64,000 nucleotides of DNA, taken from contig SUTA01000002.1 in NCBI GenBank assembly GCA_015063135.1, forward strand, positions 62,001-126,000, written 5' to 3'. The notes under the pieces were generated by a model that worked only from the letters and a program-made list of their open reading frames with translations, had not been told where the DNA came from and did not search any database. Every line of letters begins with the position of its first letter. Position 1 is the stretch's first letter. The DNA comes from Thermoplasmata archaeon. GTDB taxonomy: Archaea > Thermoplasmatota > Thermoplasmata > Methanomassiliicoccales > Methanomethylophilaceae. The translations under genes were made by a program, and so were the position numbers. This document shows, in pieces, positions 3-63,815 of the stretch.

Positions 3-335
3 GGGTTCCTGAAGGCTCACAGGAAGGAGTCCGAAGAGCTCAAAGCCTCCCTGGAGAAGGCCCGCTCCATCCTGCCGGATGTCACATCCGATGACGGCGT
101 CCTCAGGGGCATAGTGTCCGTCACCACCAGCTTCGGCATAGACGGCCACCGCGCAGACATCACGATGATGAAGGCCGCGAAGGCCAACGCGGCCCTCGAG
201 GGGAGGAAGGCGGTCACGAAGGACGATGTCCGCAGGGTCGCCCCGCTGGTCCTCTCCCACCGCATCAGGAGGCGCCCCTTCGAGGAGGCCGCCTTCGACA
301 CCGAGGAGCTCGAGAGATGCCTCCAATCGATGTGA
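3..335 (+). CDS. ChlI-like AAA+ ATPase, C-terminal part (partial)
   Basis: The gene enters from the left edge; only the last 110 residues are seen. They match the helical lid of magnesium-chelatase subunit I-type ATPases: a segment on hydrogen-bonded helices (GIDGHRADITM, KAANAALEGR type) followed by the typical tail LSHRIRRRPFEE. It ends at TGA and overlaps the start of the ChlD-like gene by 19 bases, so the two are one operon. In this family subunit I hydrolyses ATP and drives metal insertion with a D subunit. In archaea lacking chlorophyll such pairs are usually linked to cobalt or other tetrapyrrole chelation, or remain unassigned. Family is clear; substrate is inference. Confidence 0.75.
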   Translation, partial: GFLKAHRKESEELKASLEKARSILPDVTSDDGVLRGIVSVTTSFGIDGHRADITMMKAAKANAALEGRKAVTKDDVRRVAPLVLSHRIRRRPFEEAAFDTEELERCLQSM

Positions 336-2203
336 GCTTCCCGTTCACGGCCGTCTACGGCATGGACGATGCCAAGCGCGCCATAGAGTGCGCCCTGGTG
401 AACCCCAGGATCCGCACCGTCCTCATCAGGGGAGGCCCGGGGACGGCCAAGACCGTGCTCTCCAGGGCCATGGGAGGCATCTCCGGGAGAAGGATCGTCA
501 ACATCCCGCTCAACGTGACCTATGACCAGCTCTTCGGCGGCATGGACATGGATTCCACCGTGCGCGTGGGGCGGGCGGTGGCCCAGAACGGGCTGCTTTC
601 CCGCGCCGACGGGGGGATCGTCTACGTCGATGACATCAATCTGATGGACCAGGCCATGCTATCCGAGCTCCTGGACAGCGTCGTCTCGGGGCACGTCGTC
701 CTCGAGAGGGAGGGGGTCTCGTCCGATTATTCGTTCGATTCCATCCTCGTGGCCACCATGAATCCCTCGGATTCGGACATCAGCCCGCACCTCCTGGACA
801 GGTTCGACGTGTGCGCATATGCGATCCCCCCGGACGTGGAGGGGTCCCACGAGGAGATCCTAAGAAGGAACATCGCATTCTACGAGGACCCGGAGGGTTT
901 CCGGGAGCTGTACTCCGAATCTGAGAAGGCCGAGCGTGAGAAGGTAGCTAGGGCCCGCAGGCTCCTGCCCCTGGTCCGGATATCCGACGACCTACTGGCC
1001 GTCGCGGTCGAGCTGACCGCGAAGGTCGGCGCGGATGGGTTCCGCGGGGACCTCGCCATGGTCAACGCCTCCATGGCCCTTGCCGCGCTCGACGGCAGGG
1101 ACGAGGTCGTAAAGAAGGATGTGGAGGAGGCCGCCATGATATGCCTGGCGCACCGCCGCAACCCGTTCCAGCAGCCTCCCCCCGCGCCGCCGCAGCCCCC
1201 AGAGGAGCAGGATGAGGGTGAAAGAGAGGAGCCCGACGACCCCCAGCGGGACGACGACACCCCGCAGAACGAGGACCCGCAGGATGGGGAAGACGGGGAG
1301 AGGGAACCGCCGCAGCCCCCGGACATGCAGGACTTCCAGCAGATGCTGGAGGACATGGTCTTCGAGATCGGGGAGCAGTTCAGGGTCATCGACTACCTGG
1401 CCGACGGGAATGTGAGGATCGCCCGCACGTCCAGCAGGAAGGGCCGCAGGGCCATGGCCGAGAGCTCGGACTCCACGGGCCGCTACTGCCGCAGCCGGAT
1501 CCCCGACGGGAAGACCCACGACCTGGCCTTCGATGCGACCATAAGGGCCGCGGCGCCGTATCAGCGCACCAGGGACCACGGCGGGCTGGCGATATCGATC
1601 CAGCCCCAAGACATCAGGGAGAAGGTCCGCGAGAGGCGCTCCGGATGCACCATACTGTTCCTGGTCGATGCCAGCGGGTCCCTCGGAGCGAGAAGGAGGA
1701 TGGCGGCGGTCAAGGGAGCCGTCCTCTCCATGCTCCGCGACAGCTACGTCAAGAGGGACAGGGTCGGGATGATGGCCTTCAGGAGGGACTCCGCCGAGCT
1801 CATACTCCCGCCGACCAGGTCCGTGGAGTACAGCTACAGGAAGCTGGAGGAGCTTCCGACCGGGGGGAAGACCCCGCTGTCCGACGCCCTGGTCACCGTG
1901 GGGGAGTTCATGACCTCCTACTCCCGCTCCCATCAGGGGGAGGCGTGCTACGTCGTCCTGATATCCGACGGGCGCGGGAACGTGACGTTCAGGGAGGGAT
2001 CGGACCCCAAGGAGGAGGCCCTGAGGATCGCAGAGGGGCTGAAGATACCGCAGGTTAGGTGGATCGTCATCGATGCCGGGCTCGGATACCTGAGGTTCGA
2101 CCACGCGGTCAGGCTGGCCGAGGCCCTCGAGGGGACCTACTTCAGGCTGGACGACCTCGATGCCGACAGGCTGGCCGACAGCGTGAGGGCTGCGATAAGG
2201 CGA
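317..2203 (+). CDS. ChlD-like subunit: AAA+ domain, acidic proline linker, VWA domain; ends at CGA
   Basis: A 628-residue protein with an N-terminal AAA+ domain (Walker A GGPGTAKT near residue 40, Walker B-like IVYVDDIN near 100). A proline/acid-rich linker follows (about residues 280-345), then a von Willebrand A domain with a MIDAS motif DASGSLG near residue 455 and TPLSDAL downstream. This is the layout of Mg-chelatase subunit D/CobT-like partners of ChlI. The homologous part ends with AIRR, directly followed by in-frame CGA. If CGA is read as Arg, the frame continues 61 codons antisense to the importer ATPase and ends at 2386. CGA forms the palindrome CGATCG shared with the convergent gene. 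No internal CGA codon is present. Metal substrate unknown. Confidence 0.82.
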
Positions 2204-2974
2204 TCGAACCGACCCTTCCTGCAGAATCACGTGTGGACGCCCCTCATCCTCGATGATGCGGCACTTAACGCCGTACACCTCGCTGATGTTCTCCTCTGTG
2301 AACACCTCATCGACGGGGCCTGCTGCGAATATGGTGCCATCCTTCATCATCATGATGGAATCAGCATACTTCGCTGCTATGTTTAGATCGTGGCAAATCA
2401 TGACCACCATGACGTTATCCTCATGGGCGATTTCATGCAGGAGCTTTGTCACACCGAGCTGATGTTTAACATCCAGATTGGCGGTTGGTTCGTCCAGCAA
2501 CATGATTTCCGGCTGTTGAACCAATCCACGCGCCAGCATCGCCTTCTGGTGCTGACCTGCTGAGAGCTCGTTGAACTGGCTGTCGGCCAGATCGTCGATG
2601 CCCAACCTCTTCAACATGGTGAACACTATGCGAACGTCCTCCCTGGTGGACTTCCAATTGCTATGTGGGTGTCTCCCCAGCAGGACGGCATCGACCACGC
2701 TCATGGGGAATACATCGGTGGACGCATAAGGCACATATCCGACCTTCTTCGCCATTTCCTTCATGGGATACTCTTCAGCATCCTCTCCGTCTATGAGGAC
2801 CGTTCCAGCAGTGGGCTTGAGGATACGGTCTATGCAGTGAATGAGGGTGGACTTGCCCACCCCGTTAGGGCCCAGGATGGCGATCAGCTGCGCCCCCTCA
2901 TAGCTGATTGTGATATCCTTCAGAACGTCCTTGCTCGGGTATGAGAATCCTATTCCATTCAGTTCCAACCGCAT
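2204..2974 (-). CDS. ABC importer ATP-binding protein, FecE/BtuD type; ends at CGA
   Basis: A 256-residue ATPase of iron-siderophore/cobalamin importers. Visible are Walker A GPNGVGKST (about residue 36), signature LSAGQHQK (about 137), Walker B IMLLDEPTANLD (about 157) and the switch His in ICHDLN. The C-terminus EGRPHVIL is typical of archaeal members and sits nine residues before CGA. Read as Arg, the same frame would continue 404 codons antisense across the ChlD gene to 992, which is not credible. Of two start codons two codons apart, the second (2974) is chosen because GGAGGA lies six bases before it. Last gene of a four-gene operon transcribed leftward. Confidence 0.85.
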
Positions 2975-2996
2975 GTGCATTCCTCCTGCGATGGTT

Positions 2997-4061
2997 TCAT
3001 CTCCCCCACCCTCCGGTCTTCATCTTGATGAGGAAATAAAGGAAAACCGGGCTTCCGATGACTGCGGTTATCGCACCCACAGGCAGACCGGCGCCGAACG
3101 ACCTGGACAGGACGTCGGCGATGACTAGTATCAATGCTCCGACTGCCGCGGAGCATGGTATGAGGGCCCTGGACTTAGATCCTACCAGGAGCCTGGAAAT
3201 ATGCGGGACGATGAGACCAACGAAACCTATGGACCCGCAGAAACTGACCGCAATGGCGGTACAGGCGGACACTATGACCATGCAAATCAGCCTGGTCCTC
3301 TTGGGGTCCGCTCCCAACGATATGGCCGTATTCTCCCCGGATGACATGACATCGAGCCGGCTACTGTAGAAGGCTATTCCCGTCAATAGGACCGCCAGGG
3401 AGAACAGCAAGTACGGGATGGCATCCCAATTCACTTTCGATGTGGACCCGATGCTCCATGCGATGATCTGCTCGAGGATCTCCGGCTCGGCGTTGAATTT
3501 CATCACCATGGTGAGCGCCGTGAACAGGTACATCACGCCTATTCCGATCAGGATGAGCATGGTGGGAGTGGTTTTTCTCCGTACCGATATCAATATCATG
3601 ATAGCGCAGGGGATCATCGCGAACACGAACGCGTTGACAATCAGCCCGATGTTCCCAGCACCCGGGATGAGCATTATCCCTAAAGCCAGGCTGATTGTTA
3701 CTCCGAAGAGTGCGGCCGAGGATATTCCTGTGGTGTAAGGATCGGCCAGAGGATTCCTGACGCAATACTGCATCACCGCTCCGCTGACTCCGAGAATGGC
3801 TCCGATTATCAGCGATCCCAAGGCCCTCGGCAAGGTCCCTTTGAAGATTATCTCATCCCTGATGCGGTCGTAATAGCTGTCCAGCGGCACACCCTGGAGA
3901 TGCTTAATGACGACTTCCCAGGCCTCCTGCAGCGATATGTGGAACGAAATAACGGAAATCGAACACAGCGCGATGGCCACCGAAGCCACGGTAACGCCGA
4001 CCAGAATCAGTAAACGCTTGCGCTGCCTGGAGACGTAGGCATCGGCCTCGTCGCCAAACAT
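2997..4061 (-). CDS. ABC importer permease, FecCD family (first copy)
   Basis: A 354-residue polytopic membrane protein with about nine or ten hydrophobic helices. FecCD/BtuC landmarks are GAVMQYCVRNPLADPYTTGI (about residues 93-112), the coupling segment near SLGADPKRTR, and GFVGLIVPHISR near residue 275. It would form the transmembrane channel with the second permease and the FecE-like ATPase. It ends at TGA. Its start overlaps the end of the upstream permease by 11 bases when that gene is taken to stop at CGA. Base composition is lower in GC than flanking genes, which may indicate transfer of the importer. Confidence 0.85.
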   Translation of the reverse strand: MFGDEADAYVSRQRKRLLILVGVTVASVAIALCSISVISFHISLQEAWEVVIKHLQGVPLDSYYDRIRDEIIFKGTLPRALGSLIIGAILGVSGAVMQYCVRNPLADPYTTGISSAALFGVTISLALGIMLIPGAGNIGLIVNAFVFAMIPCAIMILISVRRKTTPTMLILIGIGVMYLFTALTMVMKFNAEPEILEQIIAWSIGSTSKVNWDAIPYLLFSLAVLLTGIAFYSSRLDVMSSGENTAISLGADPKRTRLICMVIVSACTAIAVSFCGSIGFVGLIVPHISRLLVGSKSRALIPCSAAVGALILVIADVLSRSFGAGLPVGAITAVIGSPVFLYFLIKMKTGGWGR

Positions 4062-8627: not shown

Positions 8628-8715
8628 GCCCCAACCGTATGGTTCGATGAGTTATCTAGCTTGGGGTGGCAACGGGGAGGGGAATGTTATTATCGCCCCA
8701 TGCATACCGAGGCCC

Positions 8716-9195
8716 ATGGAAGGCATCAGGGTGGCCGTGGTAGGGCTGGGGAGCCCGATAATGTGCGATGACGCCGTTGGTCTGAGGGTGTCCGAGGAGA
8801 TCTCCAGGCTGGGGCTCGATGGAGTGGAGTGCTTCCAGGAGGCCATCGGCGGCCTGGACATCCTGCCGGTCATAGAGGGCTTCGACTACGCAGTCATCGT
8901 CGATGCCATCCAGACCATGGAATACGAGCCGGGCACCGTCCAGCTGTACACCGAGAAGGACTTCGAGGAGCAGGTGGCCGAGGCGGCGACCCATGATGTC
9001 AACCTTCCCACGGCCCTCAAGATCGGCCGCAGGATGGAGGCTCATGTGATGCCCAGGGAGGTGCGCTTCGTGGCCGTCGAGGTGGCCGACATCAAGACAA
9101 TGTCGGAGACCATGACCCCTCCGGTCGAGGAGGCGGTCCCGAGCGCGGTCGACGCGGTGCTCCACACCATCCGCTCCATGACCGGCTCTGAGCGA
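8716..9195 (+). CDS. [NiFe]-hydrogenase maturation protease, HycI/HyaD family; ends at CGA
   Basis: A 159-residue M52-type endopeptidase. The N-terminus VAVVGLGSPIMCDDAVGLRV contains the GxGxxxxxDD motif with the first metal-binding acid. VIVDAIQTME near residue 63 supplies the second Asp region and a His (THDVNLP) follows near residue 95. The family removes the C-terminal peptide of the hydrogenase large subunit after nickel insertion; here the likely client is the F420-nonreducing or membrane hydrogenase of the methanogen. It ends at CGA after TGSE; read as Arg, the frame would add 12 residues. The start ATG at 8716 opens the conserved sequence; upstream in-frame ATGs lie antisense to the HprK-like gene. 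Confidence 0.8.
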
Positions 9196-10956: not shown

Positions 10957-12387
10957 TCGGAAATCGAAAAGGCTCTTCTGGCCTGTGGGCTTCTGCTTGG
11001 CGGCGGGCAGCTGCGGTTCGGGCTCCGCAGGGGCCGGGGGGACGTAATCCCCGGACGTGCGCTGGGACTCCAGGCGCCTCTGCTCCAGGACCTCTGCCAC
11101 CTCGGCGTATATCGCCTTCACCTCCTTGGAATCCGTCTTCTTGCCCAGGATGAACCCGGTGTGGTTGGGCTCGAGGCCGATGGCGCACACCAGCGGGACC
11201 CTGGACGACGGGTCGTTGATCATGGTCTGCCTCAGATAGGGCAGGACGTCCAGGGACGCCCTCCTGGTGGACGTGTGGGCGTACTGGGAGACCAGGAGGA
11301 GGGTCTCTTTCCTGTTCTGCCTCACGGCCTTGCTCCTGGCCATCTTGGACAGGTACATCGGGAACCTGATCCTGTCATGGCTGGTCTCGCCGGAGAACCG
11401 GGCGGTGGCAACCCCCATCGTCATCAGGTCGGTGGCATAGGACCAGAAGCGGAAGTACTGCCTCCTCATGACCCTGCCCAGGAAGACATCGGCGCGGGAC
11501 ATCTTCTCGTACCCGCGCATGAGGTCCCCCCTGTCCCTGTACTCGAATGGAAGGTTCTCGTCCAGCCACAGCTGGAGCTCCCCCGGCTCCGCATCCACCT
11601 CCATGTACAGCCTCCTGGCCGCCGAGGGGTCGTCCCTCCTGAAAACGGCCGACATCACGGCGTACATGTCAGTGCGGTTGTCCCTGGGGGACAGCTGGTC
11701 GGCCATCTCCTCCGTGATGGTCCCGGTGCCCAGGGACAGGGACTCCAGGTTCCTGACGGCGGCCCTCATGTCCCCGTCGGCGCTGGCGGCGATCTTCAGG
11801 GCGACCTCCTGGGGGAGGTTCACCTCCTCGTTCTCGGCGATGGCCATCAGGACCTTGGCGATCGTCGCCGCCTGCGGCTTCTTGAATGTGATCTGCAGCG
11901 TCGAGGACTTTACCGCGGAGCTCTTCCTGCTTAGCGCGTAGAAGTCGTTGACGATCAGTATGACCGGCTGCATGGTGGTCTGGATGAGCTTGTCTATCAC
12001 GGGGACCGCTCCGCGGTCGGCGTTGCCGAACAGGCTGTCCGCCTCGTCGAGGACGATCAGCTTCATCCCGCCCTCGCTGGCCTTCATGAACCTCCCGTCG
12101 TCGGAGAACGTGTTGAACAGCGAGCCCTTCCTGGCGACCTGCTCTATGTCCTTGCCGGTGCGCTGGTCGGAGGCGTTCATCTCCACGATCCCCCAGCCCA
12201 TCTCCCTGGCCAGGGCCTCGGCCGAGGTGGTCTTCCCTATCCCCGGGGGGCCCATTAGCACGACCGCCCTCATCTCGGGCACGCCGTGCTGCCATGACCT
12301 GGCCCAGGCTCTGAGCGTGTTGACGGCCGTCGGGTTCCCGAGCACGCCGTCCAGGTTCTGGGGCCTGTACTTCTCGGTCCAGTCCAT
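10957..12387 (-). CDS. rfcL: Replication factor C large subunit; ends at CGA
   Basis: A 476-residue clamp-loader large subunit. It begins MDWTEKYRPQNLDGVLGNP, with Walker A MGPPGIGKTT near residue 40, Walker B LIVLDEAD near 103 and a sensor-1 region. The C-terminus QKSLFDF is a canonical PCNA-interacting (PIP) box, which in RfcL lies at the very end. Here it is followed at once by CGA. Read as Arg, the protein would gain 12 residues and overlap taw1. The start overlaps the CGA of the upstream zinc-ribbon gene (CGATG), the equivalent of a TGATG stop-start. Confidence 0.9.
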
Positions 12388-12857
12388 CGCTTCGCCCCTG
12401 ATGAGTAGATGACGCGGTAGAGGTCGAACAGCTGGTACATGAACGCTATGATCCTGATGAACATGATGGCGAACGAGGGGGCCACGGTGTATCCGGGGTA
12501 TATCAGCCAGAGGACCCCGGAGATCACCAGGAACATCCCCCCTCTGATGTACTGCTTCATCAGGATGTGCCCCAGGCCGAATATGTTGAAGAATCCCGGC
12601 ACCAGGGCCAGCAGGAGCGCCACCATGGCCTTCTTCCTGACCTCCTCGGGCAGCCCCCTGACGAGGGGCGTGCCGCATTTCGGGCATACGTCCTCGTTGC
12701 CGGTGAGCGGCTCGCCGCACTTGTGGCAGGTCATCGCCGTGGATTCGCCGCCCCCCTCGTCGAGGGTGAGGGCCTTGTCCTTCATCGCCCCGCATGCGTA
12801 GCAGAAGTCAGAATCCGCAGGGATCTCCTTGCCGCACTGGGAGCAAATGTACCTCAT
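12387..12857 (-). CDS. Double zinc-ribbon membrane protein; ends at CGA
   Basis: A 156-residue protein with two rubredoxin-like zinc ribbons, CSQCGKEIPADSDFCYACG at the N-terminus and CHKCG...CPKCG near residue 44. Two or three hydrophobic segments follow (about residues 75-145). It ends SSGAK then CGA, which overlaps the RfcL ATG by one base. Read as Arg, it would run 39 codons into rfcL. Function unknown; such ribbons usually mediate protein contacts. Starts four bases inside the end of the upstream ABC gene. Confidence 0.72.
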
Positions 12858-22210: not shown

Positions 22211-22891
22211 TCACCTAAGCCACGGATGCCCTTTTCCTATAAAGGGTAGTCGGAGAACGCTGTGGATTATCTCCTCGGCCCAGCGGAGCTTCCTGGCCTT
22301 GATGGCGGGGTCCGATCCGGGCTTGAGGTGCGGTTCTGAGAAGTCGAACCCCAGGAGCCTGACCCTGGAGCCGAAGTGGCGCGCCATGCACACCGCCCTG
22401 TCCCCGTCCGTGAAGCCCCCGAAGTTGTAGACCGTGTTGCATGGGGCCGACTGCGTGGTCAAGACCACCGGGCCCCTGAACTCCGGCGCGTACCGGGTGA
22501 CGAGGTCCGTGTTGTCGCCGTGGGCGTGGATCAGCGTTACAGTGCCCCTGGAGCTCATCTCGATCTGCGGCCCTATCTCCCCGTCGAGGTCGGTCACGAG
22601 GATGTCTGGCACTATTCCGAGGGGCAGCACCCTGGAGGCCGCCGAGCCGGCCACTATCGAGGTGCCCTTGATGCCGTCGGACGCGATATCGCCCTCCAGG
22701 CGGTCGGCGGCACCCATGACTGTGCAGACAGGGCCGATCATCTCTCCGAGATCGTCGTCCGATATCAGGTCAAGGTTCACCGTGACTGCTTTGAGGACGC
22801 GGACCGCCGTCTCGTCCGAGGCCGGGTCGATGCCCATGTCCTCGCATATGCGACGGTAGGTCGGCTCCCACTCGGGATAATTCGTCCACAT
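22211..22891 (-). CDS. mptE: MptE-like 6-hydroxymethyl-7,8-dihydropterin pyrophosphokinase
   Basis: A 226-residue DUF115 protein. VAGSAASRVL near residue 80, VTDLDGE near 99 and HAHGDN near 120 match archaeal MptE, which attaches pyrophosphate to hydroxymethyl-dihydropterin during tetrahydromethanopterin/sarcinapterin synthesis. The C-terminal LGFDFSEPHLKPG and KARKLRWAEEII are typical. Its start overlaps the DUF373 gene by 20 bases if that gene ends at CGA. Ends at TGA. Confidence 0.82.
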   Translation of the reverse strand: MWTNYPEWEPTYRRICEDMGIDPASDETAVRVLKAVTVNLDLISDDDLGEMIGPVCTVMGAADRLEGDIASDGIKGTSIVAGSAASRVLPLGIVPDILVTDLDGEIGPQIEMSSRGTVTLIHAHGDNTDLVTRYAPEFRGPVVLTTQSAPCNTVYNFGGFTDGDRAVCMARHFGSRVRLLGFDFSEPHLKPGSDPAIKARKLRWAEEIIHSVLRLPFIGKGHPWLR

Positions 22892-24085: not shown

Positions 24086-24727
24086 ATGCGCATCAGGTGG
24101 CACGGGCATTCCTGCTTCGAGTTCGAGGATTCCCGCAACAGGGTCGTCATCGATCCCCACGACGGGAAATCCATCGGCATCAAGCCCCCGTCAGTCACCG
24201 CCGACATAGTTCTGATGACGCATGACCACTACGACCACAACGTCAGCCGCATCGTCAGGGGCATCCACAAGGACTTCCTCGGCAAGGCCGGAAAGTTCAC
24301 GGTCAACGGATTGGAGATCGAGGGGCTCGCGACCTTCCACGACGAGGAGGGGGGCGCCGCCAGGGGGCAGGACACCATGTACCTGTTCAAGATGGACGGC
24401 ATGAGGGTGTGCCACTGCGGAGACCTGGGATGCATCCCCTCCGACGACATCATCGCCAAGATCCGCGGGGTCGACTTCCTTTTCGTGCCGGTGGGCGAGG
24501 TCTTCACCATGCCCCTGCCTAAGGTCAGGGAGCTCATAGAGAGGGTGAACCCGACCATCGTCGTGCCCATGCACTACAGGGTGGGCGGCCTCACGATCCC
24601 GATATCCAGCATCGACGGGTTCCTGGGCATGATCCCCCAGGACGCGGTTGATTACATCGGGAACGAGATAGACGTCTCCCGCGAGGACATCGGCGAGAAC
24701 AAGGAATGCTGGGTCTTCGAGCGCCGA
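24086..24727 (+). CDS. Metallo-beta-lactamase fold hydrolase; ends at CGA
   Basis: A 213-residue zinc hydrolase of the UlaG/YtkL (UPF0173-like) group. It begins RIRWHGHSCFEFE, has the metal-binding THDHYDHN near residue 49, the ligand Asp/Cys region HCGDLG near 111, and a late His in PMHYRVGG near 160. Substrate unknown. It ends VFER then CGA, which with the convergent aIF6 gene forms CGAGCTCG, a palindrome carrying both stops. Read as Arg, it adds three residues to a TAG. Confidence 0.78.
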
Positions 24728-24729
24728 GC

Positions 24730-25389
24730 TCGGTAGAGGACGAGGCCTTCCTCGACCCTGCCCATCTCGATGGGCGTCGTCTCGTCTCCGAGGATCGCGC
24801 CCTTGGAATTGGCGAGCAACCCGGCGCCGACCATCCTGGAGCCATGGTTGACGGTGCTCCTGACGACCTCCACCTTGAGGACGTCCTTCAGGAGCGCGAC
24901 GTCGTCGTCGGACGCGTCCACGTGGCATACGCATCCCTTGTTGGTGGCACAGCACACGGAACCGACGGTGGCGCATCCCGCGATGTCCGACTGGACGCAC
25001 TCGACGCCCAGGGCATCGGCTATCGCATCGACTGCCGCCTTCTCATAATATCTGCTGACGATTGCGCCCCTGTCGTTGCAGAGGATGTTGTTCCCCGCAG
25101 CGTTGAGGGGGTCGTCCAGGGCGGTGCACGGGAGGCATTCGGACACCAGGGATACCTCCCTGGGGTCCGCCAGTCCCGATGCGACCGCCCCGTTGGAATT
25201 TAAGGCGATGAGCGAGCCGATCACGAACGAACCGGCGATCGTCATCGTTTTGACCTCGACGTCGAGGCCGCGCTCCAAGGCGTTCACGAACTCCTCGGTC
25301 GCGTCCGCGGCGACGAACGCCACGCTCTCGTTGACTGCTGCGTACACCCCGACGTTGGGGTTTCCGGCGTAACGGGCGCGGCGCATCAT
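24730..25389 (-). CDS. eif6: Translation initiation factor 6; ends at CGA
   Basis: A 219-residue aIF6, the usual archaeal length (about 220), binding the 50S subunit and preventing premature joining. The repeated beta-alpha units are visible: NPNVGVYAAVNE at the N-terminus, NILCNDRGAIVS near 95, GCATVGSVCCATNKGC near 132 and GLLANSKGAILGDET near 190. It ends GLVLY then CGA; as Arg, it would run 26 codons antisense into the MBL gene. The start follows GGAGTGATCCCC. Last gene of the ribosomal operon. Confidence 0.88.
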
Positions 25390-26854: not shown

Positions 26855-27373
26855 ATGGCAGATAAGTTCTGCGTATACTGCGGCGCCACCCTCGAGGAGG
26901 GCGCCGGATTCTGCCCTCAATGCGGGGCGACGGTCGCCAAGGAGGGGGAGCAGCAGCCCTACCAGCCGCAGCACGTCCAGCAGGAAGCGGACAAGCTGGG
27001 GTCGCTGGGCACCCTCATATTGATCTACGGTTTCCTCGCGATAGTCCTGGGCGTCATATGCCTCGCCATCTGGGGGGCGTTCGACACCATATGGGACATG
27101 ATGCTCGATGACGAGGCCAGCAGGAAGCTCATCGAGGGCTACGACAAGGACCTCATGGCCACGTCGATGCTCGTCGGCGGTGCGACCATGCTCGCCAGCG
27201 GGGCATGCGCCATCATCTCCGGCATTAAGGTCAACGCCAGGGAGAACTACAACCTCGCCCTGGTCACCTGCATCCTTGCCACCGCGCTGTCCTTCTCATT
27301 CCTGATAACCGTGATCGTAGGAATCATCGTTATCGTCAAGCTCGTGTCCGGCAAGAACTCGTTCAAGAGCCGA
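26855..27373 (+). CDS. Zinc-ribbon membrane protein; ends at CGA
   Basis: A 172-residue protein. The N-terminal ribbon CVYCGATLEEGAGFCPQCG is followed by a Gln-rich linker and four hydrophobic segments (about residues 50-70, 105-125, 130-150, 150-168). It ends at CGA after NSFKS; read as Arg, it adds 15 residues that run through the terminator hairpin. Function unknown; one of several zinc-ribbon membrane proteins in the window. Confidence 0.75.
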
Positions 27374-28629: not shown

Positions 28630-29172
28630 GTGAGGTACGTCATCGCCATGACGGGCGCTTCCGGCGCCATATACGGCATCAGGCTCCTTCAGGAGCTTGA
28701 AGGGGAGAAGTACCTGGTGGTCTCCGAGACCGCCAAGAGGATAATCCCCGAGGAGACGTCCTACAGCTACGAGGAGGTATGCGGGATGGCGGACCACGTC
28801 CTCGAGGATTCCGACCTCTTCGCATGCATAGCGTCCGGCAGCTTCCGCTATGATGCTATGATCGTGGTGCCCTGCTCCGAGTCCAACGTGGCGAAGTTCG
28901 CATGCGGCATGGCGGACACCCTGATCTCCCGCTCCGTATCCGTCTGCCTGAAGGAGGGCAGGAGACTTGTCCTCGTGGTGAGGGAGACCCCCAAGAGCGC
29001 CATAATGCTGGAGAACGAGCTAAAGCTCGCCAGGCTGGGCGTGTGCATATTGGACGCCAACCCCGGGTTCTACCCTAAGCCGTCCACCGTGGACGACCTC
29101 GTAGGCATCGTGGTGGGCAGGTGCATGGACCAGATCGGCGCCGAACACTCGCTTTACAAGAGATGGGAGCGA
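28630..29172 (+). CDS. ubiX: Flavin prenyltransferase UbiX; ends at CGA
   Basis: A 180-residue UbiX/Pad1-type enzyme that prenylates FMN for UbiD decarboxylases. The FMN loop TGASGAIYGIRLL is at the N-terminus, VVPCSESNVAKFACGM near residue 78, and RETPKSAIMLENELKLARLG near 117. The GTG start at 28630 sits about 30 bases after a GTTTTTATCC TATA-like box. It ends YKRWE then CGA (within CGATCG), close to the usual UbiX length. As Arg, the frame would run 183 codons antisense through the nitroreductase. Confidence 0.85.
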
Positions 29173-46090: not shown

Positions 46091-47131
46091 ATGCGCATAC
46101 TCGGCAGGGACCCCTCGGACAACTCGGTGAAGGTCTACATCGAGACAGACGAGGACATCTGGCATCTCTACAACGTGATCGAGGAGGGCGACCTGGTCAC
46201 CGCCTCCACCACCCGCAGGGAGGAGAAGTCCGCCGACAAGATCAGGGCCGAGAGGGCCGAGAAGAAGCGCATGACCCTGGGGATCCGCATCGAGAAGATG
46301 GAGTTCTCCGAGGACGACCTCAGGCTTAAGCTCCTAGGGACCATCGAGACCGGCCCCCAGGACATCGGCCAGCACCACACCCTTATCCTGGAGGTCGGGG
46401 ACCAGCTGTCCATCGGGAAGCCCCACTGGAGGCAGACGCACAGGGATAGGCTGGAGAGGGCCGTCAGCGACTCCAAGAAGCCTAGGATCGTGTTCGTGTC
46501 CCTCGACCAGGACGAGGCCACCATCGCAGTGCTGAGGCAGTACGGGCTGAAGGAGGTCGTGACCATGAGGTCCGGCAGGTCCGGGAAGCAGTACGCCGAG
46601 AAGCCGCAGGCCGACAACTACCACAGGGAGATCATGGACAAGCTGCTGCCGCTGATGGAGCCGGGCATGCCCCTGGTGCTCCTAGGGCCGGGCTTCGAGA
46701 AGGAGGCCCTGTCCGAGTCCCTGAAGAAATCCGGGGAGCCCCTGTTCTCGAGGCAGTTCGTGTACCATACGGGGCAGACGGGGATGGCCGGGGTGAACGA
46801 GCTCCTGAAGGCCGGGATGGGAGCGGATGTCCTCAGGGAGTCCTCCGTGGGGACGGAGATAGAGGCCGTGGAGAGCCTCATGGCCGAGATAGGGAAGAAC
46901 GGCCCCGCCACGTACGGCGATATGCAGATCAGAGCCGCCGCGGACGCGGGGGCCATAGAGAAGCTCCTCATCCTCGACTCCAGGATAAGGGAGCAGGACC
47001 TCGACGACCTCGTCAGGGCCGTGGAGGCCCAGAAGGGGACCGTGCTGGTGGTGTCCTCCCAGCATGACGGCGGGAAGCAGCTCGCCGCCCTAGGCGGGAT
47101 GGGGGCCATCCTGAGGTACAGGATGGAGCGA
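46091..47131 (+). CDS. pelA: Ribosome rescue factor Pelota; ends at CGA
   Basis: A 346-residue archaeal Pelota (Dom34), a paralogue of release factor aRF1 that, with aABCE1, frees stalled ribosomes. It starts MRILGRDPSDNSVKVYIETDEDIWHLYNVI, the N-terminal Sm-like domain; PGFEKEALSES near residue 200 opens the eRF1-like central domain and ATYGDMQIRAAADAGAIEKLLI near 278 the third domain. The family end GAILRYRME is followed by CGA; as Arg, 24 residues are added across the next promoter. Archaeal Pelota is normally about 345-350 residues. Confidence 0.92.
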
Positions 47132-48547: not shown

Positions 48548-48913
48548 ATGGGCATGACAAAGCTCAGAACCAGCCAGCTATTCGGCCAGAAGCATGTGAT
48601 CGATATCATGATGCTTCTATACTTCTTCGGGGACAAGACCCGCGGAGAGATCTATAAGGCCGTCTCTGCCTGCAACACCATGCCCGAGAAGCTGGAGCAA
48701 CTGGAGGAGTACGGCATCCTCGAGACGAAGAAAGGGCACCGCTACGGAAGCAAAGTGACCTGCCTGACCAAAGACGGTCGCAAACTCGCTGAGGACTTCC
48801 TTTCGATGGAGATATTCCTCAACGGCGACCTGGAGGAGTACCGTGTCGACACCGCGTGCCGCATGTACAGCGACCATCTCGAGATAACCGAGGACGGGAT
48901 GAGATGGAACCGA
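48548..48913 (+). CDS. Winged-helix regulator; ends at CGA
   Basis: A 121-residue single-domain winged-helix protein: IMMLLYFFGDKTRGEIYKAVS, recognition-helix region MPEKLEQLEEYGIL and wing ETKKGHRYGSKVTCLT. It resembles the regulator at 13680-13973. It ends MRWN then CGA; with the convergent ligase gene this forms CGATCG (48911-48916). As Arg, the frame runs 91 codons antisense to the ligase. Start 48548 is preferred to 48479, which lies in the AT-rich promoter. Confidence 0.72.
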
Positions 48914-50215
48914 TCGCTCGTAGGACCTGTTGTCGGTGACGTGCGACGCCTTGCCCTCGAACCTCGGCAGGGTGCCCGGCAGCACCAGCCTCACATCGGC
49001 CTTGATGTTCAGGATGCTCTTCATCCTGTCAGCGGTCAAGCGGGTCATGCGCGAGAGCTCCACCATGTCCTCGGTCAGATGGTCCTCGTCCAGTTCGACC
49101 TCCACCACCATGCTGTCCATGTAGTTGGCGTTGTTGAGCGTGATGTGGTAGAACGGGGACAGGAACGGCATCTCGCCGATGACTGATTCGATCTGCGACG
49201 GGAACACGTTGACACCGCGGACCACGAGCATGTCGTCGGTCCTGCCGGAGATCCTCATCAGGCGGGGGTGGGTCCTGCCGCACTTGCATGGGGACCAGTC
49301 CAGGGCGGAGATGTCGCCGATCTTGTAGCGGATCAGGGGGAACGCCTCCTTCTGGAGCATCGTGACCACTATCTCTCCCCTCTCGCCGTCCTTGCAGGGC
49401 TCGCCGTTCTCGTCGAGGATCTCCATGTAGCAGAGGTCTGCCCAGACGTGGAGCCCGCACTGCTCGCTACACTCCAGGAACATGGGGCCGTAGAACTCGC
49501 TGGCGCCGTAGCAGTTGTGGACACGGACGCCGGTGCGGTCCTGGAGCTTCTGCCTCATGCTCTCGGACCAGGGCTCCCCGCCGGCGATGGCCAACCGGAC
49601 CTTGGTGTCCTTCCTGATATCGATTCCCTTCTGGTCGCAGACATCAGCGATATGGAACATGTAGGAGGGCGTGCCCGCCCAGACGGTGACTGGGAGGTCC
49701 TGCATCAGCTGGATCTGCCTCTCGGTATTGCCGGTTCCTATGGGGAGCACGGTAGCTCCGACCTTCTCGGCACCGTAGTGGACGCCGAGTCCGCCGGTGA
49801 ACAGCCCATAGCCGTGGAAGTTCTGGAACATGTCCTTGCTGCTCATACCGAACGAGGTCATCCCCCTGGCCAGGGACTCTGTCCAGTTCTCAAGATCCTT
49901 CCTGGTGTAACCGACTACGGTGGGCTTGCCGGTGGTCCCGGAGGACACGTGCACCCTCACAAGCTCATCGTATGGCCTGACGAACAACTTGTCCGGATAG
50001 TTGTCGCGGAGGTCGGACTTCCTCATGAACGGGACCTTGCGGAACGCCTCGAAGCTCGTGATGTCCTCGGGCTTGACGCCGGCCTCGTCCATCCTGCCGC
50101 GGAAGAACGGCGAGATCTCGTACATCTCCTCGACCTTGGCACGGAGCAGCCTGAGCTGCATCTCCTCGAGCTTCTCGCGGGGCATCGTCTCGATCTCTTC
50201 GTTCCAGAAAGCCAT
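48914..50215 (-). CDS. Phenylacetate-CoA ligase family enzyme (copy 1); ends at CGA
   Basis: A 433-residue PaaK-type AMP-forming ligase of the usual family length. The ATP-binding P-loop VSSGTTGKPTVVGYT is near residue 92, YGASEFYGPMF near 230, DENGEPCKDGERGEIVVT near 275 and a PGTLPRFEGKA end. It would activate phenylacetate or indoleacetate to the CoA ester, which IorBA can reductively carboxylate. It ends VTDNRSYE then CGA. As Arg, it continues 98 codons antisense to the regulator gene. Start 50215 has GGAAGGA six bases before it. Confidence 0.87.
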
Positions 50216-50329
50216 GGTCATTCCTTCCGCCCTTCCAGGGCACTGTGCTATGTTATGGCATACCACATATAACCATATCGGTCGGGGCTTTCATCAATGT
50301 AATTATACGAGCGATTGGATTCATCATCC

Positions 50330-50634: not shown

Positions 50635-51597
50635 TCGCGGGAGGATTATCGACCCGAGGACGCGAAGCTTCCCGCCCTCGAGGTACATCAGTATGGCGCG
50701 GTCGCCGGGCTTGTGGATCATATCGGAGTCCATCTCCAACGCGACCTGCGCCTGGCGGAAGTCTGAACCGTCATCGACCGCGGTGACCCTGCAGGGCACC
50801 ATCTGCATCCAGTGGCCGAGGTGCAGGACCATGCCCTCCTTGAGGGGGGTGGGCCAGTACTTGACCAGGGACGACTTGCCGGAGACGGACCTGGACATCT
50901 TGACCGACGCGTCGGTGGTGAGGACGTATCCCCTGTCGAGCTCGTCGGACTCGATGCCCCTGAGGGCCAGCCCGACGTGGTCGCCCTTGACGCCGTCATC
51001 GGCATCTATGTCGTGCTTCTGGATGCTCTTGAGGATGACCTCCCTGTTGATGGGGAAGACCTTCATCTTGTCGTGCTTCCTGAAATAGCCGTCGATGACG
51101 GAGCCCAGGACCACGGTCCCGACGCCCTTGACGTTGAAGTGGCTGTCCACGGGGCAGGAGCCGCATGAGCCCTCGCCGGGCTGCTTGGCGGCCGCCTTGG
51201 CCATGGCGATGAGCTCCTCCCTCATCTTGATGGGGTCCTCCTCGCGGTACTCGTAATGCTCCAGGCAGGTCCCCGCCAGGATGGGGGCCAGCTGCTCGGG
51301 CTGGATGTAGTTCCTGAGGATGATGAACCCCTTGTCGATGCCCAGGGAGTCCACCATGACGATGGTCTCCCCCAGGAAGGAGTCGATCTTGTCCACTACT
51401 AGGATGCAGAACTCCGACATGGCGACGGAGTAGAACAGCGATGACAGCTTCTCGGGGTACTTGGAGGGCTCGATAAGGGTGAAGGAGTCGGTGCCCGCCT
51501 TGTGGTCGTAGAAGGTCATGTCTGTGACGGTGCCCTTCTTGCCTACGGTCCCCGCATACCCCGGGGTGCCGACCACCGCGATGTTCAGGTTGCCCAT
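50635..51597 (-). CDS. SelB-like elongation factor homologue (aSelBL type); ends at CGA
   Basis: A 320-residue EF-Tu/SelB-related protein with a degenerate GTPase domain. The G1 loop GHVDHGKT is replaced by GTPGYAGTVGKKGT, the G3 region by LIEPSKYP, and the G4 NKxD by VDKID. EF-Tu-type beta-barrels follow (VKGVGTVVLGSVIDG near residue 165, then KGDHVGLALRGIE). These features match the archaeal aSelBL family of unknown function, once suggested to serve pyrrolysine decoding. It ends LGSIILP then CGA; as Arg, the frame would add 129 codons antisense to the neighbour. Starts four bases upstream of the ACT gene stop region, in an operon with it. Confidence 0.72.
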
Positions 51598-52035: not shown

Positions 52036-53334
52036 TCGTAACTTCCTGGTATCGATAACGCGTTTTGCCTTGCCCTCGAACCTGGGCAGTTCTCCGGGGG
52101 CCTTGAGCTCCACGGTGACGGCGATGTTGAGGTACTTCTTGAGCTCCGACTCGATGTGTGACCTGAGGCGGATCATGTCCTCCAGCTTGTCGGTGAACGC
52201 CTCCTCCTTGATCTCCACCTGCAGCACCATGTTGTCCAGGGCGCCCTCCCTGCTGACGTATATCATGTACTGGTTCCCGACCTGGGGGATCTGCAGCAGG
52301 GTGTATTCGATCTGGGACGGGAACACGTTGATACCGCGGATGATCAGCATGTCGTCGGACCTGCCGGTGATCCTGCTGATCCTGGGGGAGGTCCTCCCGC
52401 ACTCGCACTCGTCCTCGTTGAGCGTGGTGATGTCCCTGATCTTGTAGCGGATCATGGGCATGGCCTCCTTCTTCAGCATAGTGACCACCATCTCTCCCTT
52501 CTGGCCGGGCTCCAGGGACTCCCCCGTGTCCGGGTCCAGGATCTCGACGTACATGATGTCGCCGGCGATGTGGATGCCCTTGCGCTCCTCGCACTCGGTG
52601 AACATCGGGCCGGCCTGCTCGGAGGTCCCGTATATGTCGTAGGCCTTGATCCCCATGTCCTGCTCGATGTGCTGGCGCATGCTCTCGGACCAGGGCTCCG
52701 CTCCCAGGACCGCCTTCCTCAGCTTGGTGTCCCTCCTGAAGTCGACGCCCATCTTCTTGGCGACGTCCCCCATATGGACGAGGTAGGAAGGGGTGCACGC
52801 GATAGCGGTGACCCCGAGGTCCTGGATGAGCTCGATCTGCCTCTCGGTGCCGCCGGTCCCGGTGGGAAGGACGGTCGCACCGACCCTCTCGGCCCCGTAG
52901 TGGAGTCCGAGGCCGCCGGTGAACAGTCCGTAGCCGTAGGAGATCTGCATGGTGTCGTCCGGGCCGATGCCCACTGAGGTCAGGGACCTGGCCAGGGCCT
53001 CGGTCCAGTACTCGAGGTCGTTCTTGGTGTAGCCCACGAGGGTGGGCTTGCCGGTGGTCCCGGAGGACACGTGGTACCTGACGACCTCGTTGTTCGGGAC
53101 GGTGAACATGTTGGTGGGGTAGTAGTCACGCAGGTCCTGCTTGTACATGAACGGCAGCTTGGTGATGTCGGCCAGGCCGGTGATGTCGTCAGGATGGACG
53201 CCCTGGACCTTCATCCTGTCGTGGTAGAACTTGTTGAATGAGTAGAGGTTGTTAACGAGTGCTTTCAGCTCGCGGTACTGCAGCTGTTTCAGCTGCTCCT
53301 TCGGCATGCACTCAATCTTAGGGTTCCAGTACAT
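52036..53334 (-). CDS. Phenylacetate-CoA ligase family enzyme (copy 2); ends at CGA
   Basis: A 432-residue PaaK homologue: P-loop VSSGTTGKPTLVGYT near residue 92, YGTSEQAGPMF near 230, PRISRITGRSDDML near 325 and a C-terminal GELPRFEGKAKRVIDTRKL. It ends there at CGA, followed by GGTGAG, the ribosome binding site of the ACT gene. Read as Arg, it would add 15 residues and overlap that gene. Paralogue of the ligase at 48914-50215; the pair may act on different aryl acids (phenylacetate, indoleacetate, hydroxyphenylacetate). Confidence 0.88.
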
Positions 53335-53421
53335 AAAATCCCCTTTATGCTTCGACCTAACACCGCGCTCGTAGATAAACATTGCACGCGCGTTTTTATG
53401 CATCGGCCGCATTCGGCATCC

Positions 53422-54929: not shown

Positions 54930-56150
54930 ATGGCCCCCAAGAAGATCCTTCTGGTCGTATTGGACGGAATGTCCGACCGCGCATGCCCCGAGCTCAGGGG
55001 ATCCAGCCCGCTCCAGTACGTGCGCAAGCCCAACCTCGACTGGTTCGTGGACCACGGGATCGCGGGGCTGTGCGACCCCATCGCCCCGGGCATCCGCTGC
55101 GAGACCCTGCAGACGTACCTGTCCCTGCTCGGTTACGACCCCATGGATTCGACCTACGGCCAGGGTACGTTCGACGCCCTCGGCAAAGGCCTAGACCTCC
55201 AGCCCGGCGATGTCGCAATCAGATGCAGCTTCGCCACGGTGGACGAGACGGGCCAGATCGTGGACCCGTCCGCCGGGGGCCTGACCAACGGGGAGACAGC
55301 CAGGTTCGTGAAGGCCCTGGACGGCATCGAGGCGGGCGGGGCGGAATGCACCCTGTCCCCGGGCACCGGCCACCGCGCCATACTGGTCATCAGGGGCGAC
55401 GGCCTGGGATCCAACATCTCCTGCCCCTACGGGGAGCCCGTGGCCGCCCTGGACGACGAGTCCTGCGAGACGGCCGACATAGTCAACTCGCTCATGGAGC
55501 AGTATGCCGAGGCCCTCGCCGACCATCCGCTCAACAGCGAGCGCATCGCCGAGGGGAAGCCCCCTGCGAACATCCTGATCCCCAGCGGGGCCGGGGGGTA
55601 CCCGGAGATGGAGAGCTTCTCCGAGACGCACGGCCTGAGCTCGTGCTGCGTCGCGGGTTACGACCTCATCAAGGGGATATGCAAGGCCATGGACATGGAC
55701 ATCTACCCTCTGGCCGAAGCCTGCGACGGCACCGTCCACACCAACTTCGGGGCCAAGATGGACTGCGCCATGATCGCCCTGCAGGACTACGACTTCGTCA
55801 TCATCAGCTACAAGGCCGCGGACGTGGCCGGTCACATGGGGGATCCGAAGGCCAAGTGCGATGTGATCAAGATGCTGGACACCACCATGGGCTACCTCAG
55901 GGCCAACATCAGCGACGACCTGCTCATCGCCATTACCTGCGGCCAGTGCACCCCCTGCGGGCTCGGCCTCCACGCCGGGGACCCGGTCCCCGTGGCCATC
56001 TACACCAAGAACTGCATCAGGGACGATGCCACTGAGTTCAGCGAGACCGGCTGCTCCCACGGCTCCATAGGCAGGATACGCGGGTCCGACTTCCTGAGGA
56101 TCTGCATGGACATGGCGGACCGCAGCCCCACGCCGCAGTCGCGCATACGA
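54930..56150 (+). CDS. apgM: 2,3-bisphosphoglycerate-independent phosphoglycerate mutase, archaeal type; ends at CGA
   Basis: A 406-residue ApgM of the alkaline-phosphatase superfamily, converting 3- and 2-phosphoglycerate in glycolysis/gluconeogenesis. It begins KKILLVVLDGMSDRACPELRGSSPL with the first metal Asp. SPGTGHRAILVIRG is near residue 146, FVIISYKAADVAGHMGDP near 290, and the late His cluster lies near 350. The family end SRI is followed by CGA at 56148-56150. As Arg, it would continue 218 codons antisense through both pilin-like genes. Overlaps the convergent gene by 12 bases. Confidence 0.92.
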
Positions 56151-61280: not shown

Positions 61281-62659
61281 ACGCCAGGAAGCTCGTGGGC
61301 GAGTGCCCGACGGTGGTCGGCATGATCACGGCGTCCCTCGAAGCGGGCGGGTCCTTCGACTCCGCCGCCCGGTACGTGGCGGAGGAGGGGCCTCCACTCT
61401 CCGCCGAGCTGTTCTCCAGAGCGGTGCGCATGGCCGACGCGAAGGCGTCCCCGGGCGTTCGCCGGGCCCTGTCGGAGGTCCTGGACGGCGTTCCCGAGGG
61501 TGCAGGCGGCTACAGGCAGGCGGTGTCCATGTGCATGGCCGCATCCGAGTCCTCGGACCGCGAGGGCATGGACTCCATGCTGAGGGAGGCGTCCGACGCA
61601 TCCCTGGAGGCCGTCAGGGGCATGGGGGAATCGTACAGCGCATCCCTCAACTTCCCATGCATGGCCGTGTTCGCCATCGGGATAATGGTGCCGATGATCC
61701 TCATGTCGCTCATGCCCATGATGGACATAGGCGGGATGTTCGGGGCCGCGGCCCTGGACAGGGGGACCGTCATGGCGATAACGCTGGTGGCCATCCCCGC
61801 AGGCATACTCCTGCTGACGGCGAACGTCCGCGCCAAGAACCCGTTCCTGGTCAGCGGCGGTGGCAGCGACGCCCTGAGGCTCTGCGCGCCACTCGTGATC
61901 GCAGTGCCATGCGGGCTGGCGTACTGGGCCTTGGTGGGGGGAGAGTCCCTACTGCTGGCCGCAGCCGTGCCAGCATGCTCTGCGGCGCTGGCGCTGTCAT
62001 ATGGCCGCTACTCCGCGGAGAAGCGCAGAGCATCCTGCGATTCCGGCATGAGGGACTGCGTCTACGAGATCGGGAACAGGATGTCCTCCGGAGAGAACTT
62101 CGAGTCAGCGGCGGTGGGGTCCCTGTCCGGGAGAGCCGAGTGCAGGGAGGCTTCCGAATCCCTGTCCCGGTCCCTCCGCCTGTGCCGCGGCGATGCGGAG
62201 AGGGCCGTGAGGGCCGCCGTAGACCCCGTATCGCAGGAAATGGGGTCCGCCCTGGCGGAGATAGAGAGGTGCTCCCGCATCGACCTGAGGGACGCCGGCG
62301 GCCTCGCCATCGCCCTGGGCCGGCAGTTCCAGAACCGCAGGGCCGCACTCGCCTCCCTGGAAGCCGGGATGAAGTCCATGACGGACATGATGGTGGGCAC
62401 GGCCATGGTGTTCGCCCCGCTGGTCCTGGGGCTGAGCGTCGCGATGATGCGCCCCCTGTCGCGGATATCGGGCTTCGAGGGCGTGGACGGGGCCTGGTGG
62501 ATCCTCGGGGCCTACCTGATCGAGCTCTGCGCCCTGATAGCCCTGCTCACATCGAGCCTGGGCAGGGAGGAGAGGTTCGTCACCGGCCTGTGGAGGTTCT
62601 GCCTGATGTGCCCGGTCTCCCTGTTGGTGTTCACGGTATCCTGCGGCATACAGCTACGA
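61277..62659 (+). CDS. Type II secretion membrane core protein, GspF/TadC/FlaJ-like; ends at CGA
   Basis: A 460-residue polytopic protein. Two GspF-type repeats appear: a helical domain [25 protein letters not shown] near residue 15 and its second copy [24 protein letters not shown] near 257. Each is followed by membrane helices. It forms the inner-membrane platform for the ATPase upstream. The TTG start at 61277 overlaps the ATPase stop. It ends VSCGIQL then CGA; as Arg, the frame continues in register into the rubredoxin gene and gives a false fusion. Confidence 0.82.
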
Positions 62660-62698
62660 CAAGTGTTTAGAGCCCGCAGGACGTACGGGAGCGTTACC

Positions 62699-62959: not shown

Positions 62960-62968
62960 AACGAAGAA

Positions 62969-62997
62969 GCGGGGGCCGAGGCCCCCGCATTTTATCC
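62969..62997. terminator. Bidirectional hairpin between rubredoxin and cbiK
   Basis: GCGGGGGCC-GA-GGCCCCCGC, a perfect 9-base stem followed by ATTTTATCCTTTT on the right. The convergent cbiK gene ends eight bases beyond. Confidence 0.6.
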
Positions 62998-63005
62998 TTT
63001 TACGT

Positions 63006-63815
63006 TCGGAGCTCTTCCATCGCGGCCTTGACATGGCCCAGGAAGAGGTCCCTGAACGCCTTGAACTCACCGAGGCCCTTGATCACGCAGTGAACGTCGT
63101 AGCCTTCGGCGGCCAGGACCGACTTGAGCGAATCCTCGTCGTCCCCGGCGATGTCGTTGTTGGCGTGATCGCCGGCGACGACCATGAACGGGAACAGGAC
63201 GACCTTCGTGGCGGCGCCCTCCATGAGCACGATGGTGTCGTCGTACTCGGGGAAGCCCTCCACCGTGGTCACGAAGATGTCGTTGGGCCCGGTCGTCATC
63301 AGCATGAGCTGGAGCTGGCTGTACGTCGCGTTCGCGAAATGCTCGGATCCGTGTCCCGCCAGGACGATGGAGCATCCCTTGCCCGCTATCGCCTCCGCGG
63401 CCGGGACGAGCTCGGACTCGATGGCCGCTATTACGTCCTCGTAGTCCTCCAGGGTGGTGAGCAGGGGCTTGCCCACTACAATCTTGTCGAACCTGGACCT
63501 GTATCTCCCCACGACCTCCACGATGTCGTCGTACTCCTCGCCGTTCATGATGTGGGTGGGCTGCACGACAACGGTCCTGGCGCCGTCCGCGGCGAGCCTC
63601 TCCAGGGCATCGGTGACGTAGTCGACCTTCTTCCCGTCGCGCTCCGCCAGCTTCTTGATGATCATCCTGCTGGTGAAGGCGCGCCTGACCTCCCAGGAAT
63701 CGCCGTAGGCCTCGCATATGGCCCTCTCTATCGCACCTATGGTCTTCGAGCGGTTCTCGTTGTAGCTCGTTCCGAAGCTCACCACCAGTATCGCACGGTC
63801 GTTCTTGCATGCCAT
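63006..63815 (-). CDS. cbiK: Sirohydrochlorin cobaltochelatase, CbiK type; ends at CGA
   Basis: A 269-residue class II chelatase. ILVVSFGTSYNENR is at the start, VQPTHIMNGEEYDDI near residue 85 supplies the first metal His, and VLAGHGSEHFANATYSQLQ near 150 the second His. VTTVEGFPEYDD is near 183. It inserts cobalt into sirohydrochlorin for corrinoids (needed by MtaC) or nickel for F430. CGA follows MEEL; as Arg, only one further residue precedes TAA, so this case alone is weak evidence for the CGA stop. Confidence 0.88.

Follow-up and report, generated by a model that had tools for sequence, protein, structure and literature searches.

In the genome of a Thermoplasmata archaeon of the family Methanomethylophilaceae, CGA very probably acts as a stop at the level of the codon, about as frequent as TGA and presumably read by the release factor aRF1, in a genus where aRF1 and an arginine tRNA would compete for this codon. 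The starting point is a window of 64,000 nucleotides (G000:C8:62001-126000, where G000 is the source genome and G001 and onwards are comparison genomes), in which a sequence-only reading had noticed proteins that reach the end of their family exactly at an in-frame CGA and had proposed that CGA is a stop codon. Counts of codons in reading frames, transitions from coding to non-coding sequence and the ends of homologous genes confirm CGA as a stop in the window, and the codon-level reassignment that had been suggested is supported across a sampled quarter of the genome. CGA stands at gene ends, is otherwise absent from clear reading frames and is aligned with the stops of relatives, and the locus of tRNA-Arg(UCG) is empty. 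The G000 assembly is a draft of 1.86 Mb in 40 contigs, 87.5% complete and 0.05% contaminated, with a GC content of ~60%. The nearest matches of its RfcL are at most 62% identical and carry the names Methanomethylophilaceae, Methanomassiliicoccaceae or Thermoplasmata; several of them are gut-derived (roe deer, water deer, horse).

Gene ends, gene interiors and the arginine tRNAs

The main sample of 418.5 kb consists of the window and 20 further stretches, on 17 contigs, and amounts to about a quarter of G000. Coding frames were recognized with a model of codon usage trained with CGA, TAA, TAG and TGA left unscored, a choice that avoids pre-selecting the answer, and codons were counted only where one frame was clearly coding. 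This frame scoring replaced a plain homology count of CGA against relatives, which had yielded 81 CGA for the window and 13 for other G000 stretches. Those values were discarded because shadow frames and out-of-frame upstream extensions had spoiled them; judging by position, most of the counted CGA came from such extensions. Among 82,289 clear-frame codons CGA occurs nine times, TGA eight times, TAG twice and TAA not at all; the counts for the other arginine codons are 88 for CGG, 59 for CGT, 136 for AGA, 1337 for CGC and 2955 for AGG. Four of the nine CGA are, judged by context, gene ends (window 2201, L038:19990, L044:12922 and L052:3389), one lies barely beyond a gene end (window 2210), one immediately precedes a TAG (L036:18254), two are followed directly by what appears to be the beginning of a same-frame gene (L038:19297 and L047:18644), and one sits in a stretch whose score is not that of coding sequence (L052:188). 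With these explained by context, clear coding frames hold no genuine internal CGA, as the sequence-only reading had found for the genes it followed codon by codon, and so no internal CGA was seen at a conserved position of another residue, the sign of a change from arginine to a different amino acid.

The same codon is abundant where genes stop. A transition test over 449 kb of G000, which takes codons with a coding upstream part and asks whether coding ceases there, gave 115 of 123 for CGA, 142 of 146 for TGA, 17 of 17 for TAA and 4 of 8 for TAG; the next-highest sense codon, TTA, reached 9 of 19 and the remaining sense codons pooled 6.4%, with similar values in other runs. Gene ends whose last part is coding number 314, of which 148 are CGA, 146 TGA, 19 TAA and 1 TAG, and the CGA-ended set includes RfcL, aIF6 and aRF1 itself. 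After a terminal CGA the next standard stop follows at a median of 28 codons (within 3 codons in 10 of 146 cases), and the stretches beyond are mostly non-coding in composition. An end-count rule requiring non-coding sequence downstream and a distance of 6 or more codons to the next standard stop returned 131 CGA ends, as against 16-39 for each of eight control codons. It is therefore hardly conceivable that CGA is merely a very rare arginine codon followed by real C-terminal extensions: the codon is also rare inside genes in relatives that have retained tRNA-Arg(UCG), but in G000 it is frequent at ends and absent inside, the extensions are mostly non-coding, and the relatives' genes end at these places. 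Once CGA is treated as a fourth stop, the genes of the window abut one another, and 53 window open reading frames (ORFs) picked by eye, in which internal CGA is zero by construction, end in TGA (26), CGA (21), TAA (6) and TAG (0).

Miscalling of TGA as CGA, whether by an assembly or sequencing artefact or by in-silico alteration, might be suspected in a draft of 40 contigs, but is barely credible. Miscalled stops cannot clear CGA from gene interiors, CGA transitions occur on 15 of the 17 sampled contigs (the remaining two were sampled by 1.5 and 4.5 kb only), and TGA is kept at its 146 ends. Furthermore, G001, G021 and G027 have CGA at homologous ends, and the emptiness of the tRNA locus likewise speaks against such an error.

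For 47 CGA-ended genes with homologues, a standard stop lies within 5 codons of the CGA in 221 of 246 gene-genome pairs and exactly there in 161; the control set of TGA-ended genes gave 226 of 235 pairs. When the homologues are read to the first of these four codons, the one standing exactly at the CGA position is TGA in 148 cases, CGA in 10, TAA in 10 and TAG in 1, and the median end offset exceeds 5 codons in 5 of the 47 genes. Most CGA ends therefore correspond to TGA ends of the relatives, one T-to-C step apart, and the alignment of gene ends that the sequence-only reading had called for has come out in its favor. CGA itself stands at exact homologous ends in a metal hydrolase (G001), in UbiX (G021) and in an amino-acid-kinase-like gene (G001 and G027).

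Stops created by editing of CGA are known from plant mitochondrial genes, and the fact that CGA stands where relatives have TGA would also suit C-to-U RNA editing that turns a terminal CGA into UGA and leaves the code unchanged. Such editing is nevertheless quite improbable in G000, as no strong signal was found in the 30 bases on either side of CGA ends, whose information content is like that of TGA ends, and editing by itself requires neither the disappearance of internal CGA nor the loss of a tRNA. A search for DYW deaminases gave no match and says little, its control search having been equally silent. The claim that CGA ends have no flanking context in common is largely borne out, the exceptions being G or C at the wobble base just before the CGA and a mild excess of TCG afterwards that stems from convergent overlaps. 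C is the rarest base after true ends, following 22 of 148 CGA and 19 of 146 TGA. Where two convergent genes both stop at CGA, they have the palindrome CGATCG in common (window 2201-2206 and 48911-48916, and in other stretches), and TCG follows 20 of the 148 CGA ends.

Arginine anticodons identified by ARAGORN on tRNA loci of G000 are TCT, CCT, GCG and CCG, and neither ARAGORN nor a pattern scan nor a covariance model found a tRNA-Arg(UCG) in the 40-contig draft, as expected if CGA is a stop. The best G000 match to the tRNA-Arg(TCG) covariance model is the GCG tRNA only, at 69 bits, whereas 14 of 22 same-genus genomes score 93-101 with the same model; five of the remaining eight carry a diverged TCG tRNA scoring ~68-70, and three were left unassigned (G013, whose retrieved copy is GCG, and G016 and G017, each with an arginine GCG copy near a contig edge). 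An RF00005 search proved lossy, having missed a tRNA at C32:12251 that the tRNA-Arg model found. Synteny breaks around the tRNA-Arg(GCG) gene, and the question of the locus was settled by the HypE neighborhood. In the relatives of the high-scoring kind the TCG gene is a direct neighbor of HypE; G000 retains HypE, the gene after it and an APRT-like gene but has no tRNA at this place, where 7 of 7 relatives compared have it. Because this neighborhood is intact around the empty site, the absence is unlikely to be a gap of the draft. The relatives (L342, L325, L266 and others) have tRNA-Thr(GGT), HypE and tRNA-Arg(TCG) in conserved order.

The absence of tRNA-Arg(UCG), together with the presence of Pelota, would also fit a CGA that is merely unassigned, with ribosomes that stall and are rescued or drop off in place of true release by aRF1. 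This alternative is improbable, given that CGA accounts for 148 of 314 ends, those of RfcL, aIF6 and aRF1 among them, and stalling at nearly half of the genes would be very costly.

In the relatives the tRNA persists in an altered form. All 23 same-genus genomes examined have an abnormal tRNA-Arg(TCG): in 18 of them 31:39 is mismatched (C-A or A-A), and five have C33 instead of U33 together with a 27:43 mismatch. At the same positions all 13 outgroup copies are normal. U33 and a paired 31:39 are found in all 42 G000 tRNAs and in sets of 18 and 35 non-TCG tRNAs of relatives (the two sets overlap by at least one). From general knowledge of tRNAs, the 31:39 mismatch or C33 would weaken decoding by the relatives' tRNA-Arg(UCG). 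Loss of the tRNA in a whole subclade was at one time considered, when the pattern scan and model scores suggested that G003, G007, G009, G012, G013 and G019 were without it, and was dropped because ARAGORN showed the tRNA in G003, G007, G019, G009 and G012. Positions 27:43, topmost in the anticodon stem, are likewise unpaired in tRNA-Arg(GCG) of six relatives (L303, L309, L316, L318, L321 and L328).

CGA-ended genes of the window

The ends singled out by the sequence-only reading, those of RfcL, Pelota, aIF6, both PaaK ligases, ApgM, UbiX, the FecE-like ATPase and ChlD, were all seen again, and homologue ends were compared for 12 CGA-ended genes of the window. At its left end, a ChlD-like gene (317-2203, plus strand, CGA 2201..2203) was recognized by ORF reading; its coding signal fades, the transition is classed as unclear, and the TCG that comes next is the CGA of a convergent gene, the FecE-like ATPase (2204-2980, minus strand, CGA 2204..2206). 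The latter and a FecCD-like permease (4051-5160, minus strand, CGA 4051..4053) were likewise identified by ORF reading. A protease-like gene (8470-9195, plus strand) has a probable CGA stop at 9193..9195, a weak case with a poor homologue match, since in the two relatives matched the standard stop comes 6 codons later. The clearest end is that of RfcL (10957-12387, minus strand), whose CGA at 10957..10959 comes right after the PIP box, QKSLFDF, and is matched in homologues by 13 TGA and 1 TAG out of 14. The RfcL start codon is overlapped, in the CGATG stop-start arrangement reported earlier at 12387, by the CGA (12387..12389) of a minus-strand gene at 12387-12857 supported by ORF reading and frame scoring.

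Two minus-strand genes follow. The first (22250-22891, CGA 22250..22252; ORF reading and frame scoring) has 3 TGA exactly at the CGA among 13 relatives, the rest standing at other offsets, and the second (22872-23999, CGA 22872..22874; ORF reading) has TGA at offsets of -7 to 1 in 10 relatives. The metal-hydrolase-like gene (24086-24727, plus strand, CGA 24725..24727) has 10 homologues with 8 TGA, 1 TAA and 1 CGA (that of G001) at this codon, and aIF6 (24730-25398, minus strand, CGA 24730..24732) has TGA there in 9 of 9 relatives. A plus-strand gene at 26855-27373 (CGA 27371..27373) was identified by ORF reading and frame scoring; for UbiX (28597-29172, plus strand, CGA 29170..29172) 17 relatives include 8 with TGA and one, G021, with CGA at this codon, and for a gene that looks CopG-like by eye (32888-33247, plus strand, CGA 33245..33247) the corresponding codons are 19 TGA and 1 TAA out of 20.

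Pelota (46091-47131, plus strand, CGA 47129..47131) is supported by ORF reading, frame scoring and TGA in the one relative compared. A plus-strand gene at 48479-48913 (CGA 48911..48913; ORF reading and frame scoring) shares CGATCG with a convergent PaaK gene (48914-50266, minus strand, CGA 48914..48916; ORF reading, frame scoring and homologue ends). Frame scoring and 3 of 3 homologues with TGA at this codon support a minus-strand gene at 50635-51597 (CGA 50635..50637), and ORF reading and homologue ends the second PaaK (52036-53412, minus strand, CGA 52036..52038). ApgM (54930-56150, plus strand, CGA 56148..56150) rests on ORF reading, as does a FlaJ-like gene (61277-62659, plus strand), whose CGA at 62657..62659 separates it from the rubredoxin gene at 62663-62959, so that the fusion of the two is indeed false. 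The last gene, CbiK-like (63006-63815, minus strand, CGA 63006..63008), was identified by ORF reading and frame scoring.

TAG hardly serves as a stop, accounting for 1 of 314 ends. TAG codes for pyrrolysine in related methanogens, and its rarity might be expected for that reason. Window genes at 38490-40305 resemble a corrinoid protein and a methyltransferase.

The release factor and CGA in the genus

One aRF1 and one Pelota were found in G000. The sequence-only reading had looked to the stop-recognition region of aRF1 for changes, with a divided outcome: the NIKS motif is unchanged, while the residues just after it at 69-70 (Asn and His) occur in none of the 28 family members aligned with G000, and in the relatives a conserved in-frame CGA lies within the aRF1 gene. 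NIKS reads NIRS (K63R) in G001 (L060) and G006 (L344), the lysine there being the one that contacts the first base of the stop codon. G000 and its family have Met at residue 68. The factors in 4af1, 3agk and 3j5y (which we take to be haloarchaeal, Aeropyrum and eukaryotic) have Arg, and the nine outgroup loci beyond the family that could be read have Arg, Asn or Gln; at eight of these nine the aRF1 gene contains CGA. Of 20 loci retrieved for this comparison, 10 did not match the motif and were left out. Simulations of eRF1 reported, among other results, a penalty of ~6 kcal/mol against CGA, due largely to Lys63, with Lys63 and Arg68 together excluding C at the first position and R68A cutting the penalty to 1-2 and so nearly abolishing it (PMC5681627). 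Loss of Arg68 was rejected as the specific cause, Met68 being family-wide; because lineages with Met68, Asn or Gln keep an in-frame CGA in aRF1, it is at most permissive. A relaxed first position in aRF1 may thus be old and permissive, and would not explain G000 by itself.

The in-frame CGA of the relatives occurs at Arg81 (presumably so in human eRF1 numbering, as assigned from alignments). The site is readable in 26 of 30 same-genus genomes and is CGA with a C after it in all 26; the corresponding codon is CGC in G000 and AGA, AGG, AGG, CGC and CGC in five other genera of the family. Arg81 is the sole conserved arginine position of aRF1 with CGA in the genus, the other arginine codons over 24 genomes being AGG (355), CGC (69), AGA (54), CGT (35) and CGG (2). 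Its context is (G/T)CT CGA CTN AAR in 24 of 24 aligned genomes, and GCC CGC CTC AAG in G000. The reading frame runs unchanged across this CGA in the relatives, with no frameshift of the prfB type, and a conserved in-frame termination codon of the prfB type is absent from aRF1 of G000, which has CGC there.

The frame model trained poorly on several relatives (e.g. G018, G016 and G047), and the relatives were recounted by other runs. Pooled over 26 relatives (1.12 Mb, 192,866 codons), CGA gave 48 transitions, 3 unclear cases and 6 continuing ones, as compared to 18, 17 and 123 for CGG. Of the six continuing CGA, five are the aRF1 site and one is a junction of CGA and ATG in the same frame in G002; the relatives' sampled sequence showed no genuine internal CGA outside the aRF1 site. 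By the end-count rule, G001 has 9 CGA ends, G027 6, G021 4, G014, G007, G026 and G029 3 each, and G009 1, with zero in the other 12 genomes listed. This rule alone proves nothing for the relatives, because sense-codon controls give similar numbers (in G001, 7 for CGG and 10 for ATA). What sets the relatives apart is the scarcity of continuing CGA together with some exact homologous CGA ends; usage of CGA as a stop is much lower in them than in G000, and the counts are uncertain. CGA near gene ends is also seen in the outgroups G031, G047 and G049, where it is probably ordinary arginine.

In the explanation we favor, the single aRF1 of G000 would accept CGA, a near-cognate of TGA, for want of an efficient competing tRNA. 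Across the genus, aRF1 and the weakened tRNA-Arg(UCG) would compete at a single leaky CGA, that of Arg81 in the aRF1 gene, so that abundant aRF1 would lead to less aRF1 synthesis in a self-limiting loop suggested by the conservation of the site. Autoregulation is proposed for the relatives only, because G000 has CGC where 26 of 26 readable relatives have CGA. In G000, with the tRNA gone and the aRF1 site CGC, CGA would be an unconditional stop, mostly one T-to-C change from TGA, and the absence of CGA at Arg81 fits because the site would be lethal once CGA stops unconditionally. On balance, the genus appears to display stages of a sense-to-stop change: CGA withdrawn except in the aRF1 loop, then a minor stop in several species, then a full stop in G000 with loop and tRNA lost.

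Several observations weigh against the reading of CGA as a stop recognized by aRF1. The stop function of CGA in G000 is deduced from DNA sequence, and the genome is a draft of 40 contigs at 87.5% completeness. NIKS is intact in G000 aRF1; Met68 is also found in other family genera that carry an in-frame CGA in aRF1, and the gene likewise contains CGA in outgroups where residue 68 is Asn or Gln. The relatives' counts of CGA ends by themselves do not rise above those of sense-codon controls. The putative feedback loop is proposed from conservation, and G000 is without it; G000 may have lost the loop or may have branched off before it arose, and the trees disagree on its place. FastTree places G000 with G001, G018, G026, G027 and G029 (local support 0.905) and misplaces an outgroup family inside the genus, and in the IQ-TREE tree all other members of the genus form the sister group of G000 (54).

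Comparison with known systems and implications

To our knowledge, code changes in cellular genomes run from stop to amino acid or from one amino acid to another, with sense-to-stop changes confined to organelles, where the cases include AGR and UUR. A search of titles and the starts of abstracts in open-licence papers likewise brought up no recognizable cellular sense-to-stop case, in agreement with the sequence-only reading, which knew of no CGA-to-stop change in a cellular genome. The in-frame UGA followed by C in prfB, the gene for RF2, autoregulates its expression in bacteria. The relatives' aRF1 resembles prfB in having a conserved termination codon in a leaky context inside a release-factor gene; it differs in that the CGA is read as Arg81 without a frameshift and the competitor is a weakened sense tRNA, and G000 is without the site.

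Green-algal mitochondria are described as having UCA/UCG sense-to-stop changes with a changed mtRF1a (PMC6821328). In common with the organelle cases, the codon vanishes inside genes, appears at their ends and lacks its cognate tRNA; unlike them, G000 involves a whole archaeal genome, GC-rich and of 1.86 Mb, with CGA as the codon, UGA still in use and relatives that are apparently intermediate. Arginine codon changes reported from Codetta include CGA/CGG to Trp or Gln in low-GC bacteria, with loss of tRNA(UCG) involved in some (PMC8629427). They share with G000 the codon and the tRNA loss, and differ in that G000 shows arginine-to-stop in a GC-rich archaeon. The same report states that Codetta chooses among 20 amino acids, so that some types of change may be missed (PMC8629427). 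In tRNAs with a shortened anticodon stem, lack of the uppermost stem pair is said to enlarge decoding and has been linked to code changes (PMC13092985); the relatives' tRNA-Arg(UCG) also has unusual stem pairing, but of a different kind, a 31:39 mismatch or C33, with a presumed effect on decoding.

A cellular CGA stop with apparently intermediate relatives makes the path of the change testable, namely whether weakening of the tRNA, loss of the codon or recognition by the release factor came first. Standard gene calls for G000 carry false C-terminal extensions and fusions, and codon screens confined to amino-acid meanings can miss cases of this type. If true, an archaeal release-factor feedback loop acting on a sense codon would be a further new regulatory device.

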